This document shows positions 13,051 to 49,000 of a DNA stretch of 64,000 nt, piece after piece (positions within the stretch are counted from its first letter, which is position 1; each line of letters begins with the position of its first letter). Location of the stretch: contig OY979723.1 of assembly GCA_963855995.1 (NCBI GenBank), positions 13,344,713-13,408,712 of the forward strand. Direction: 5' to 3'. Under the pieces are notes generated by a model, which was not told where the DNA came from, made no database searches, and saw only the letters and a program-made list of their open reading frames with translations. The translations under genes and the position numbers were made by a program. Source of the stretch: Muricea muricata. Its lineage: Eukaryota > Cnidaria > Anthozoa > Malacalcyonacea > Plexauridae.

Positions 13051-16000
13051 GTTTGTGAAAGTTTTATCTTTTTGTCTGAATAGGGAACCACTCGTCAAAT
13101 GTTGACAACGTGTTTTTTCCAGGAATTTGGTATGCAGCTTTTATTCATTGCTAGTGTCATAAGGGTTTTGAATTGTTGTCTTAAGCTTATAATTGTAATG
13201 CATAAAGAAGGCAATCATGTTGGTTAGATAATATACCATGTGCAGTGTTTTTCTACGTGATAACACACTCCTAACTAGCAGTTTTGTTGTATGGGGTCAG
13301 AAGTTTTTCTGCAGTGCGGTTGCGTTTCCGACTTATCATCATTATTCTTTGTTGTCTTTAAAATCAGCTCGACTCCAGGGGTTGGTTCTATAAAACGATT
13401 AACTGCATTTAAAGTAACCGATTTGCAATCAAATAGTTTATTTTTCACTGAATAAAACAAATTCCGAAGATAGAGATCTTGTATTCCTGATATTCAAGAA
13501 AAAACAAGAAAACGACGGAGTCGGTGATATTTGTCTTTATTCCAAAGACATTGTCAAACTAATGGCAATTGGTTTGACAAAAAAATCAAAATCAAAAAAA
13601 ATAATTTCCAAAATCATTGGTTTGACAATGTCTTTGAAATATAGACGAAATATCACCGACTCCGTCGTCTTCTTGTTTTTTCTTGAATATCGGGAATACA
13701 AGATGTCTATCTTCGGAATTTGTTTTATTTTGTATTTCCTTAAGTTGTCTACTTGTCGTGGTTTCTCACTGACTATAGTTGAATATAACTTTTGTGGTTA
13801 TTTCATTTTGTTGATGCCAGACTGATAACTCTAACACTGACTGTGCTAGAACTGTATTTTTTTATTTTCCCTATCTAACTTCCATGAATTGCAACATAGA
13901 ATTTTGATATTTACATGCGCGTGCGTATCTGTCATTTCTCGCCTTGCGATAAACAAGAGTATTGGCATGATCCGTCGTTTTTATAATGCAGAATGACAAT
14001 CGCATACGACAAATGGGGTATCGTGTAAACAGGTCTTGTGACTGTCAGTCAGTTTACCTACGACACTGTGCAGTTGTGATGTGTAGACAATGTTTTATGA
14101 GGTTGTAGTTGAATCAAAAACGATACAGCGGCAAAAGTAATGGATATGAGAGAGAGATTCAGTTGAAATGCGTATCCGCGGGAAACCAGTCCGGGCTTAC
14201 GTCGCTGTAAAAATCTCAGAAAATTCCGAAGCTCTTTGCCTCGAGACAAGAATGTGTACTCGGCATACATAGTGCCAGTGTCGGATTCTTGTGCAGGAGT
14301 TGGCCCGACGTAATCGAGAGACGAACTGTGGTTTGATAAATCGCTAGAATCATTGGTAGCTTGAACGGAGTCATTCTCGGCTTCTACTAACCATGGGCAA
14401 ATATCATTGATTTTCTCCATAAACTTTCTCTCTCGTCGTTTTATCACCTCTCCCACAATGATTGGTGCAAGCCAAATAGTTACGATGAATATCAAGTAAC
14501 AAATAAACTGTGGAAGATGTTTCGAATGATATTCTGTACCGGAAACTGCCTGAGCCAGCTCGTAACCGTACAGCGGTAACGCAAGTGCCACGATGTTATG
14601 AACGAGGAACCACCATGAGATTCGTTTCCAGGAACGTTTCACCGGCTGCGCATACATCTCCATGAAAAACGACACGGCATCGACCGAGGAGTGCTTCCAC
14701 TTGAGGAAAATATTTTCCAGGATTTTCAAACGAGCTGCATAACAAGCATAAAGTAGAGCTAACGTCCAGGACAATGCAAGTCCTATACTGACATTGTAGA
14801 AAATTGCTATTGGTATAAAATAGTATAAGATGTGATCGACCAGGCCGTGCACGTACGGGAATTGCGATGAAAAGCGTTCAGCACCTTCGTTCCACATTAA
14901 ACGTGTCACTACAAACAGCGTGCAAAGCATTATGAAAAAAGACGTCATTGATGTTACTGCAGCAACATTTAAGATCTTGAGCCTGCGTTTCGACGTTTTT
15001 GCAAATCCGGTCAGCGGTTTTGAGGGACTGAGCACATTTGTTTCCAGATCTCTTGAAGCGAAGTAACGTATGGCAAGGATATGACCTAACCATACAACTA
15101 ATTCATGGATGATATACAAGATCTGGATGCTTAACCATGTTGATTTTTCTGTAGCTTGAAAGGCATGACGTAATGGTCCGTTTGTTAATAGTAGAAGATT
15201 GACAAAAACGGGGTAGACGTAGCTTTCAAAGAAGCCCGCTGACCCCGGTCGCCATAGTGACAGCAGGCGCAGTAGAACACGGATTACTTGGAAGTCACGT
15301 GAATTGAACGATAGGGTATCCGTTCCAATTAAGGTGATCCCATCAAGCTCCCGAAGCTGTCCCGAAAGTGACATTTTTATTTGACGACAATTTGCACGAA
15401 ATCTTCTCTCTGTAATGCAAAGAAGAGTAAAAAGGGCTTTAGTCACTGAGATTTTCTTTAAAGTTCAATTCGATTCAAGCATCAACGTGACTGGTGATGC
15501 AAGAAAAATTGTGCCACGGTGGCAACAAGTGAATCTGTGGATGACGAATCAGAGACTTCACAGAATGATATTCGCTCAATGTATAATGAGTAGCGTAGCT
15601 AGCTCGATGATTTAGAGCCGCTATGCAAATATTTTCCTGTTTATTGACTGTGAAAACAATCAATTTCTAAAGAAATGAATAATGATAATTACTTGAAGAT
15701 AAGTTGAAATTTGTATAGCGGAACTAAATTGTCGGGCTGTCTACGCCGCTGTATTTGATAGCAAGCAAACCTGCAAATCAGTTCATTTCTTATTCTAAGA
15801 CGCAACACAATGAACTTTGCTGAATCTCGAACAAGACAATCATACATATATTGTATGTTATAATATCACATATAATAATGTTATAATATCACAAGACGTT
15901 TCCACGTGACTGCAATATATTTCGTTTCGCTAAGGCATGAGCGTTTTAATAATTCAATGCCTCTCGCTCGACAGTGCCAACTTATCACCTCTTATTGGCC

Positions 16001-46000: not shown

Positions 46001-49000
46001 GAAAGTTCAACTGAAAGCTGAATCAAACTGCCTTGATCTCCTTCACCGCACCGAGTTATTGTTCCAGTTTACGTATAGCTTAACTATCGGTTATTTAAGT
46101 CACTGAGATTTTCTTTGAAGTTCAAGTCGATTCAAGCATCAATATGACTGGTGATGCGAGAAAAATTGTGCCACGGTGGCAGGAAGTGAATGACTAATCA
46201 GAGACTTCACAGAATGATATTCGCTCAATGTATGATAGCATGCGAACCTGCAGATCAGTTCATTTCTTACTCTAAGAATGCACATTATAATATAGTATTT
46301 GTGAATCCTGAACGCTGACTGTTTAAGAGCCGTGATTACATAACTCAATGTAAACACGAAAAATTTCCTGCCACTTGTAAACACGGAAATTTTTCTTGCT
46401 ATATCATAAAAAAATTATAAAACATCTTTCTGTGTTGATACTCCGCCCTTCGGGCGTCGTGTTTTCACATAATTTCTCGTTTTTCCAATTTCCACTCATG
46501 TTGATATAACTGTATATCAACACGGGAAAACGTTTTATAATTCTTAAGCATCACAAGACATTTCCACGTGACTGCAATATATTTCGTTTCGCCCAGACAG
46601 GAGCGTTTTAATAATTCAATGCCTTTCGCTCGACAGTGCCGACTCATCACCTCTTATGCCACTTGAACACAGCGTAGGAGTTGAGTAAAAAAAAGACGGA
46701 GATGGAAACTTATCCGTGTCAGTCAATCAGTTCTGTAAAGTTTCGGTTCTTGTTTGAATAAAGACGCAAAGACCTTGCAAACTCACCCTTGCCTATTATA
46801 AAAAACTAGTTTTTCATACCTCTGAGGATGATTCTGAAACTATTCGTATAAGCTGTTATTTAACTTTTGCTTTCATTGTGAATATCTTTCATCCTCGTTG
46901 GCCCATGACAGTCATGTAATTTAAATTATTATACGAACTCGTGCAACTCTCCTGTTCTCGTTTGAGCAAGACGTGACAGTTAGGAAAACTCTCGTGCATG
47001 CTCATGCTTGCTAACTCTGAACAACTTTCACGCAGCTCTTCTCGTGCCTTGACTTGGATACAAGGGCAAGGAATACTCTCCTACAAACTCTCGCTTGTCA
47101 ACTCTCATCAGCTCCCCTTTTCGCTTGACGACACCTTATTAATGTAAACAAGAAGCCAGAATGTATGCAATATCCCTCCTTGGGCTCCAATGCCTCAACT
47201 ATCGCTAAGGACGCTCACTCATTAAAATAAATGTCTGATTAAATATAACAGTCCCTAAACATAACATGTATCCTTATCCAACAGGCATTGGTTATTACAT
47301 ATCGACACACTCGTGTGTGATATGTGAATCTCTATTCCAAAGCATAATAATACTACTTACCCACAAAGTTCAAAAGACTGTCGAAAATCAGCAGCAGTGT
47401 TGGGTAGTTGATGATAGATTTGAAGCTAAAACCAAAAGCTCAACTGTACACACTAGTGACTAAACACTCATGACCATCTGTCATTCAATGTTAAAATGCA
47501 TTGCGGAGTTGTTATTACAATGGTGTCATTTACTGCATCCTCATTGGCTACCTATAATCATAGACAATCAACAGAATGGACTGGAAACGCAAGCTAAAGT
47601 GTCAATGTTGCTGACGCAACATCCGTGATACGGCCTGATATGCTATACTTTGGAACCCTGTAACTTCACTTTAAATATACTTCAGGACTTTCTATTTACA
47701 TATTTTAAATAAGAACGGCAAGCTCTATGGAACTATCGACTTTTGAAATTCTTTATGGATATAACAAAGCTAAAACCCAACGCTGAATGTTTGCATTCTT
47801 TTTGACTGCAGAAATGTCGCCATTGTTGTTGTTGAAAAAGGTTTACGGAAACATTAAATGGTGATTTTCCGCCTCGTTATCTCTCTGAAAAGTTTTAAAA
47901 TTCGATAGTTGCATTCACATTTCTGTTCTTGTTTAAAATATGTAAATACGAAGTCCTGAAATGTATTTAAAGTGAAGTTACAGGGTTCCAAAGTAAAGCG
48001 TATCACGGGTGTCGCGTAAACTTTAGCTTGCGTTTCCAGTCCATTCCTTAGATTGTCTATGCTATAATGTAAAATTTGTCTCAACAAGCAGAATAGAATG
48101 CGTGTAAGATTTACCTGAGTCTGAATAACGGAAGACTTCTTTGTTAGTCTGGAGAAGTCATTAAGACTAAAGAGAAGCCATTTTTCCCCCGCAGAGAATG
48201 GAACATGGAATCATTGATCAGATACATAAAGGTGATAGGTGGGCCGCCGGGAAAAGAGGGTCTGTTGGTTGGCTTGAAAAATGGACAGGTGGGATTTGAT
48301 AGATATTGATGTACATTTTGAGCTCGTAGTGGGACGGGGGGAGGGAGAGAATTGTACACTTGAGCGCATAGTAAGACGGGGGTTGTACACTTGAGCACGT
48401 AATAGGACGGGAAGGGGGGTTGTACACTTGAGCGCGTAGTAGGACGGAGGGTTGTACACTTGAGCGCGTAGTAGGACGGGGGGTTGTACACTTGAGCGCG
48501 CAGTAGGACGGGGGCTGTACACTTGAGCGCGTAGTTGGACGGGGGGTTGTACATTTGAGCGCGCAGTAGGACGGGGCTCTGAATGCATGGCCACGAAAGC
48601 GGTATGAGGGGGTGGGACAGGGAATTTTCATTCATTTTGCTAGGGGAGAGAGAGGCATGGAGGTTAGTTAGTCTTGTCTGTGTCCACCACCGACGAAGTG
48701 TGCTTCACACTTGCGGTAACAATCGCGGATTTTGTCCTCATCGCGTATGTGAAAGAGTGCCTCCCAAACCAAAGTATTGGAAAACAAATATTAGGTTGCT
48801 TTTAAAGAAGTACACATTTGTATATAGTAACTACTTAACCACATCGACCAAAAGAGGCCATCTCGATTCTTAGGATAAGTGTGAAGAAGGCTTGAATCGT
48901 GGCTAAAAGAAAGTATTCTCTTTAGATTTTAAAAATCTTCACAGACAATCCTTTTCCTATCCAGTTGTTGAAACAGCAAACCAGCGTTCGGTGTCTGGAC

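Follow-up and report, generated by a model that had tools for sequence, protein, structure and literature searches.

A tandem array of genes with a predicted insect-chemoreceptor-like fold inside one intron of IFT122 in Muricea muricata

The host gene and the array in its intron

The window analysed here is a stretch of 64,000 nucleotides of Muricea muricata (contig OY979723.1) that carries the ciliary-transport gene IFT122. Twenty-two exons joined from the window give a stop-free IFT122 model of 580 residues, the translation of which scores 1,020 bits against human IFT122 in the PDB. Twenty of the introns in this model measure 74-1,259 nt, and elsewhere in the gene no unresolved span between anchors exceeds about 1.4 kb, whereas one intron extends for 35,144 nt. 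This giant intron has canonical GT-AG borders, with the donor GT at 13051 and the acceptor AG at 48194, and the join 13050^48195 reads GEKE-R-EWNMES, the R codon being split into 2+1 nt. These results bear out an earlier note on this DNA, which had claimed that the exons complete each other's codon around an intron of about 35 kb and that nearly all other introns fall below 1.3 kb. The note had also numbered it intron 17; it is the 16th in our model, and because that model is without the very 5' end of IFT122, 17 is plausible, though not counted directly. The intron and its contents are as follows, in window coordinates.

13007..13050, forward strand: IFT122 exon directly 5' of the giant intron (splice model and translation; 14 residues, then the split R)
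13051..48194, forward strand: giant IFT122 intron, phase 2, holding the array (splice model)
14058..15374, reverse strand: R1, receptor gene of 438 codons, intact (open reading frame)
18057..19373, reverse strand: R2, receptor gene, intact (open reading frame)
21357..23507, forward strand: LINE-type reverse transcriptase open reading frame, 716 aa, inserted between R2 and R3 (Pfam RVT_1, 6e-38)
24718..25422, reverse strand: R3, fragment without start and 3' half (self-alignment; two pieces in the whole-genome search)
25955..27271, reverse strand: R4, receptor gene, intact (open reading frame)
29287..30603, reverse strand: R5, receptor gene, intact (open reading frame; query for the homologue search and the first structure model)
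33515..34831, reverse strand: R6, receptor gene, intact (open reading frame)
38477..39793, reverse strand: R7, receptor gene, coding DNA identical to R6 (open reading frame)
43433..44749, reverse strand: R8, receptor gene, 2 nt different from R6 (open reading frame)
47555..48064, no strand assigned: palindromic 510-nt MITE-like element in the last unit; unit homology restarts at 48065 (repeat analysis)
48195..48288, forward strand: IFT122 exon directly 3' of the giant intron (translation; split R, then 31 residues)

The array, as marked out by direct-repeat homology, runs from 13094 to 48105-48112 and stops about 43 and 82 nt short of the flanking exons; inspection by eye extends the homology slightly beyond both computed edges, near the 35 and 85 nt that the note had given for an array spanning the intron almost edge to edge. 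Direct-repeat blocks account for 29,689 of the 35,144 nt (84.5%), and the remainder is mostly the LINE region and palindromic elements. The tandem units indeed contain seven intact, oppositely oriented genes, each of exactly 438 codons, together with one fragment and inserted transposons. The intron encloses the coding exons, the conserved upstream blocks and the poly(A)-like signals, as befits genes nested on the opposite strand. Rfam returned no matches at gathering scores.

Relatives and predicted fold of the receptors

A whole-genome search with one array protein as query, in which the best candidates were scored and remote members could be missed, recovered eight intact members. Seven are the array genes, on one 14.6-Mb contig, and the eighth is a paralogue (C3), 62% identical, on another contig. 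A wider search with R5, scoring the 8,000 candidates that shared most words with it, returned 54 homologues, of which eight carry an organism name, all octocorals. R5 was aligned with 49 of these (A1; all but P0022, P0029, P0051, P0053 and P0054) and, separately, with 34 of them (A2), and a receptor tree was built with C3, leaving out P0045, P0049, P0051, P0053, P0054, R3, R7 and R8. In this tree the homologues P0002 and P0003 adjoin R6. Expansion seems to have been repeated in several lineages, on a tree that settles the deepest branchings only within the clade that contains the unlinked gene. Literature searches, mostly without subscription papers, found nothing related on octocoral gustatory or chemosensory receptors, a family that may be described elsewhere; they likewise found nothing on IFT122 in octocorals and, on chemoreceptor tandem arrays within an intron, nothing but work on insect sugar receptors.

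What the note had called membrane-receptor-like genes can be given a sharper description. The predicted fold is that of the insect odorant and gustatory receptor (OR/GR) channels, with TM7 split into 7a and 7b, in models of middling confidence built from one-family alignments. The length of 438 aa and the seven hydropathy peaks in R5 agree with the range of gustatory receptor-like (GRL) proteins of the 7TMIC superfamily, roughly 350-500 aa with seven transmembrane segments. R5 has 29 K/R residues in its inner stretches (47, 17, 33 and 90 residues) against 4 in its outer ones (8, 17, 19 and 11), a count whose bounds were set from the structure model, with cytoplasmic helix ends included among the inner stretches, and which is therefore not independent of that model. 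The N-terminus would thus be cytoplasmic and the intracellular loops longer than the extracellular ones. A GPCR identity is disfavoured by the predicted fold and by the lack of 7tm matches in Pfam.

At the level of sequence the family is cryptic. Searches of the PDB by phmmer and by profile gave nothing relevant and no link to solved ORs or GRs, and Pfam gave no GR or OR match, the best other match among 50 members having an E value of 0.0038, in one member. One paper describes the animal GRL TM7 motif, (T/S)Yhhhhh(Q/K/E)(F/L/M), as "diagnostic, but not definitive" (PMC7746228). In the 50-row alignment its first position is S in 44 rows and T in 2, and Y is replaced by F in all 50; at its end, Q/K/E occurs in 40 of the 50 rows and is mostly followed by L, but three residues early, so that the motif is half kept. 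The coding exon is uninterrupted in all seven copies, without the typical GRL 3' introns, which the same text treats as characteristic of animal genes while accepting members from other kingdoms that lack them (PMC7746228). The intact frames are under purifying selection, with a dN/dS that is not very low; conservation of some flanks equals that of the reading frames (upstream of R1-R2, 95-97%; R6-R8 throughout).

We predict, from fold alone, that the receptors are a branch of the insect-chemoreceptor superfamily. With the known animal members (insect GRs, ORs and Orco; Nematostella GRLs) they would share predicted fold, length, seven helices, split TM7 and the probable cytoplasmic N-terminus, and they differ in lacking any similarity, by sequence or by Pfam, that the searched libraries could reveal, and in having a half-kept TM7 motif, an intronless coding region and named members that are so far only octocoral. 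Such a fold need not imply a sensory function: one Nematostella GRL has been proposed to act in development or inside the cell, a possibility also discussed for PHTF. Nematostella GRLs are described as expressed early, one of them possibly acting in apical patterning (PMC7746228). Tandem clusters are, however, described as widespread among chemoreceptor families in the part of the literature available to us (PMC11526382), and the apparently repeated expansion is suggestive in the same direction, which leaves a non-sensory role doubtful, though worth serious consideration.

IFT122 and receptors in other assemblies

The note had pointed to this IFT122 intron in other cnidarian genomes; as all of the named homologues are octocoral, 'cnidarian' can be narrowed to that group. 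When contigs are matched by equal size and not by position, open reading frames of IFT122 exons and receptors occur together on contigs of 117,769, 134,407, 622,142 and 1,297,852 bp. The 117,769-bp contig carries IFT122 exons from both sides of the giant intron, the 1.3-Mb contig holds P0002, P0003 and an IFT122 exon by the same size match, and receptors on three of the shared contigs are only 57-65% identical to R5. Twelve of the 16 receptor contigs of at least 50 kb have no IFT122 exon open reading frame, although short exon frames are often unpredicted and absence would look alike. Seven of these 12 belong to the clade of the unlinked gene, and the other five lie outside it (702,514, 98,571, 500,410, 426,960 and 13,614,365 bp). 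Conversely, no receptor is listed for a contig of 248,201 bp whose IFT122 exons represent both sides of the intron at 100% identity; receptors may be hidden there in 90% clusters. The association of IFT122 with the receptors looks old, and we infer both nesting within IFT122 in other species and its age from these contigs.

The note had raised the question of linked expression. The location might be maintained by a coupling to ciliated cells, in which the receptors profit from open chromatin or elongation at IFT122, or receptor promoters boost IFT122, with cilium machinery and ciliary receptors on together. A single locus would in that case supply both receptors and some of the machinery for their transport to the cilium. 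The sharing of contigs despite such divergence of the receptors speaks for this, as does the position of seven of the eight intact members found within the IFT122 intron. Single-cell data from C. elegans on 567 opposite-strand nested pairs cut both ways: about half of the cell types that express the nested gene also express its host, but such pairs are, on average, less co-expressed than neighbouring pairs (PMC12274878). Moreover, olfactory neurons are described as expressing OMP but not its host CAPN5 (PMC6549253), the paralogue persists on another contig, and inertia can also preserve nested genes. The general nested-pair data thus argue mildly against linked expression with IFT122, and we regard coupling as rather unlikely. 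We consider it unlikely that selection keeps a growing family of chemoreceptor channels within a gene for ciliary transport throughout the octocorals because host and nested transcription are coupled in ciliated sensory cells.

Transcription units, origin and known counterparts

Conserved blocks sit 0.5-2 kb before the ATG in all seven intact genes, and an acceptor-like site (pyrimidine tract and AG) lies 32-35 nt before the ATG in all seven copies; all are on the reverse strand.

15888..16124, reverse strand: R1 conserved upstream block, candidate promoter or 5' exon (self-alignment)
19981..20208, reverse strand: R2 block, shorter in the seven-way alignment (self-alignment)
27786..28034, reverse strand: R4 block (self-alignment)
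30639..30660, reverse strand: acceptor-like site of the R5 copy, 35 nt before the start codon (sequence comparison)
31668..31900, reverse strand: R5 block (self-alignment)
36626..36863, reverse strand: R6 block (self-alignment)
41582..41819, reverse strand: R7 block (self-alignment)
46550..46787, reverse strand: R8 block (self-alignment)

The receptor genes probably have a 5'-UTR intron, although no splice donor could be fixed by eye in the conserved upstream blocks. The unlinked C3 also has an acceptor-like site before its ATG, and because both loci keep the site, the intron looks older than the split between the array and C3. The single coding exon suggests retroposition between the two loci, which may nevertheless not have been the route, given that shared site. 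Instead of constituting seven genes, the receptor exons might be trans-spliced, or a single long antisense transcript with a shared leader might use them as alternative 3' exons. An acceptor-like site before every ATG would suit such an arrangement, as would the sequence above it, which is unrelated between different groups of copies; each gene nevertheless has its own upstream block, as separate promoters would, and C3 carries the site without being linked, which makes a single transcript distinctly unlikely. The block ahead of each gene fits independent promoters better than dependence on the host, short of proof.

Receptor transcription could instead lower or reshape IFT122 by antisense interference, through early polyadenylation or exon truncation. 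All seven genes are antisense, and nested genes in human cells are reported, in the accessible text, to cause intron retention, exonization and cryptic polyadenylation (PMC3192792). Uniform orientation, however, already follows from tandem duplication of one founder, and we judge interference quite improbable. Finally, it is very improbable indeed that the array was misplaced in IFT122 by the assembly or that R6-R8 are haplotypes written in tandem, for although these units are 98.8% identical across 10.7 kb, splice sites and reading frame are intact on both sides, and the size-matched 1.3-Mb contig, with its IFT122 exon and the two homologues next to R6 in the tree, is joined by three more contigs that agree.

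We consider it likely that a 7TMIC branch, named to date from octocorals, has occupied this IFT122 intron, or a place next to it, from a time before several octocoral lineages diverged, and that it grew by exon-bounded unequal exchange, each copy being a complete antisense gene. Exchange would have been limited to the space between the neighbouring exons, since duplications that included an exon would damage IFT122. Within each copy, an upstream block would be followed by a splice acceptor in the 5' UTR, a single coding exon and a poly(A) signal, and the copy would be expected to be transcribed on its own; the product may be a tetrameric ligand-gated cation channel with a chemosensory role. 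IFT122 would meanwhile be transcribed through 35 kb of array and the intron spliced out. Such a family would extend the insect-chemoreceptor superfamily by a branch, cryptic and apparently octocoral, that is recognised here by fold only, and it presents a gene family with most of its found members expanded in one intron, with host exons as bounds. The recurring association would make shared regulation of nested and host genes directly testable in several species.

An intron of NF1 likewise holds more than one antisense gene, namely EVI2A, EVI2B and OMG; these are different genes, whereas the IFT122 nest is one expanding family. Insect GR arrays of the Gr64a-f type are not known to lie within a single intron of some unrelated gene. 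They otherwise resemble this array in placing members of the same predicted fold superfamily in a tandem cluster (PMC2667405). Antisense genes within an intron of an unrelated host are described, in the portions of the sources at hand, for LRRTM genes in alpha-catenin introns, where the intron is large and the arrangement conserved (PMC3933685), and for ceh-10, within one intron of polq-1 (PMC12274878). In contrast to both, the IFT122 intron is filled almost from exon to exon by seven tandem copies.

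The giant IFT122 intron and its receptor-like genes

IFT122 lies on the plus strand of the window; the contig is 14.6 Mb long and the whole genome 453 Mb. The IFT122 exons were placed by tblastn with a human IFT122 sequence, followed by a splice-site search for the joins, and the joined translation of 580 residues scores 1,020 bits against the IFT122 of solved IFT-A complexes. The modelled stretch contains 21 introns, 20 of them spanning 74-1,259 nt and one, at 13051-48194, measuring 35,144 nt. This intron has canonical splice sites, and an arginine codon split across it (AG/A) is restored by splicing to give KEREW, as in human IFT122. 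The earlier note was right to place a receptor array within a giant IFT122 intron. Self-alignment of the intron likewise bears out its claim of seven intact antisense genes in tandem units: the intron holds seven intact antisense copies of one receptor-like gene, a truncated eighth (R3 in the series R1-R8), a LINE and several palindromic elements.

Features in and around IFT122
6172-6675 (+): two exon-like stretches that repeat the initial WD-repeat segment of IFT122 (43-46% identity to human residues 15-86; in-frame stop in the second) and seem to be a copy of its 5' end, decayed or diverged
10962-11296 and 30832-31233: mutually related palindromic MITE-like elements, one of the two inside another IFT122 intron
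13451-13729 and 47555-48064: palindromic MITE-like elements
25582-25655 (+): tRNA-Val(AAC)-like sequence in the R4 3' flank
near 28860-28930: similar tRNA-Val-like stretch (by eye) in the R5 3' flank; both may belong to a tRNA-derived SINE that was copied with the duplicated units
48352-48576: minisatellite in the next IFT122 intron (32-nt unit, about 7 copies)
61511-63001 (+): Bcl-2 family gene downstream of IFT122 (Pfam Bcl-2, 2.9e-26); an exon near 62855-63001 likely encodes a C-terminal membrane anchor

The repeated unit starts 43 nt inside the donor and stops about 82 nt inside the acceptor, and the two array ends coincide at the same unit position, with the junction near 16950-16968. Such a meeting of ends would follow from a first duplication that included nearly the whole intron interior and later exchanges confined between the exons, the history that we infer. 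Coding DNA differs by up to 7% among the remaining copies; that of R6, R7 and R8 is identical or two nt apart, marking these three as recent copies.

Reading frames and candidate transcription signals

Each intact array gene has 438 codons, with zero indels among copies, while the flanks of most compared pairs contain indels; the R1-R2 upstream flanks and all R6-R8 flanks are about as conserved as the reading frames. NG86 dN/dS ranges from 0.28 to 0.60 (18 pairs with a value, R6-R8 counted three times), and a synonymous excess is seen in all seven pairs tested singly (p 3.4e-6 to 0.023), these pairs not being independent.

At 32-35 nt 5' of its ATG, every copy has an acceptor-like, pyrimidine-rich AG site, just upstream of which similarity between copy groups ends. 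Farther out, 0.5-2 kb before each ATG, lies a conserved block about 160-250 nt long. These features suggest that each copy has a promoter and a noncoding first exon. In the seven genes a first AATAAA occurs 148-341 nt past the stop codon, a motif that could arise by chance in AT-rich DNA.

Receptors and IFT122 exons on contigs of equal length

Proteins in a large database were linked through the bp size of the contigs that carry them. Queries of joined IFT122 exon sequences gave 9 rows in one search and 23 in another, on 30 contigs told apart by size (the second ran to E 10, and four of its 23 rows are named primates); the receptor search, with R5 as query, returned 54 rows on 39 contigs told apart likewise. 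All eight receptor homologues bearing an organism name are from octocorals (Paramuricea, Dendronephthya, Xenia). Four contig sizes are common to IFT122 exon ORFs and receptors (117,769, 134,407, 622,142 and 1,297,852 bp), a coincidence with a chance of 5e-5 in random draws (sizes of at least 50 kb; 16 receptor, 15 IFT122). Receptors of the 1,297,852-bp contig adjoin R6 in the tree; one of them, P0003, is close to R6-R8 and ends in a tyrosine run that may reflect a sequencing error or a shift of frame into simple repeat. The other three contigs probably come from other octocorals, since their receptors are 57-65% identical to R5 (BLAST) beside IFT122 exons 95-98% identical to those of the window. 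The 117,769-bp contig combines two receptors with exons matching 12228, upstream of the intron, and 51533, downstream.

No IFT122 exon ORF showed up on 12 of the 16 receptor contigs of at least 50 kb (five of the 12 do not belong to the clade of the unlinked gene described below), which is weak evidence either way because short exon ORFs often go unpredicted. A 248,201-bp contig has IFT122 exons from both flanks and zero receptors among the rows listed; either it is a counterexample, or 90% clustering may account for the missing receptors.

Origin and regulation

The whole-genome search, which scores the best candidates only, gave at least 10 matches: the seven array genes, two pieces of the R3 fragment and one intact gene on another contig (C3; L009:8558-9943, minus strand, 461 codons, 62% identical in that search). 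No similarity was found between the flanks of this gene and the array. In a 55-row tree it sits in a 12-row clade (95/99), one row per contig, whose members include Xenia (17,445,722) and Dendronephthya. The clade has zero rows on the four shared contigs, all 13 receptors of which fall outside it. Outside this clade, same-contig copies mostly group in pairs or triples (the 500,410-bp contig being an exception), so the family seems to have expanded repeatedly, in different lineages. The forks among the groups outside the C3 clade give no ground for claiming a single clade of IFT122-linked receptors.

Retroposition is described as the usual explanation for nested genes with one coding exon (PMC3933685). 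That the array genes and the C3 gene all have an acceptor-like site upstream of the ATG (ATTTCAG at C3) speaks against a retroposed move between the two loci. The simplest account, and a probable one, is that an old nested gene multiplied where it was already seated in the IFT122 intron.

Opposite orientation is reported as the commonest kind of gene nesting (PMC3933685). For C. elegans, opposite-strand nested pairs are described as having an average co-expression below that of neighbouring pairs, although in roughly half of the cell types that express the nested gene the host is expressed too (PMC12274878), and OMP is reported to be expressed without its host (PMC6549253). The interpretation in the earlier note is partly supported: an antisense array of receptor-like genes does fill the intron; linked expression with IFT122, which the note raised as a question, is so far not supported. 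Nested intronic genes are described as common in animals (PMC8527503), so nesting alone is unremarkable; what stands out is that a receptor family fills the intron and is found again with IFT122 as its host. The array is a variant of two known kinds, nested genes and, by predicted fold, 7TMIC receptors.
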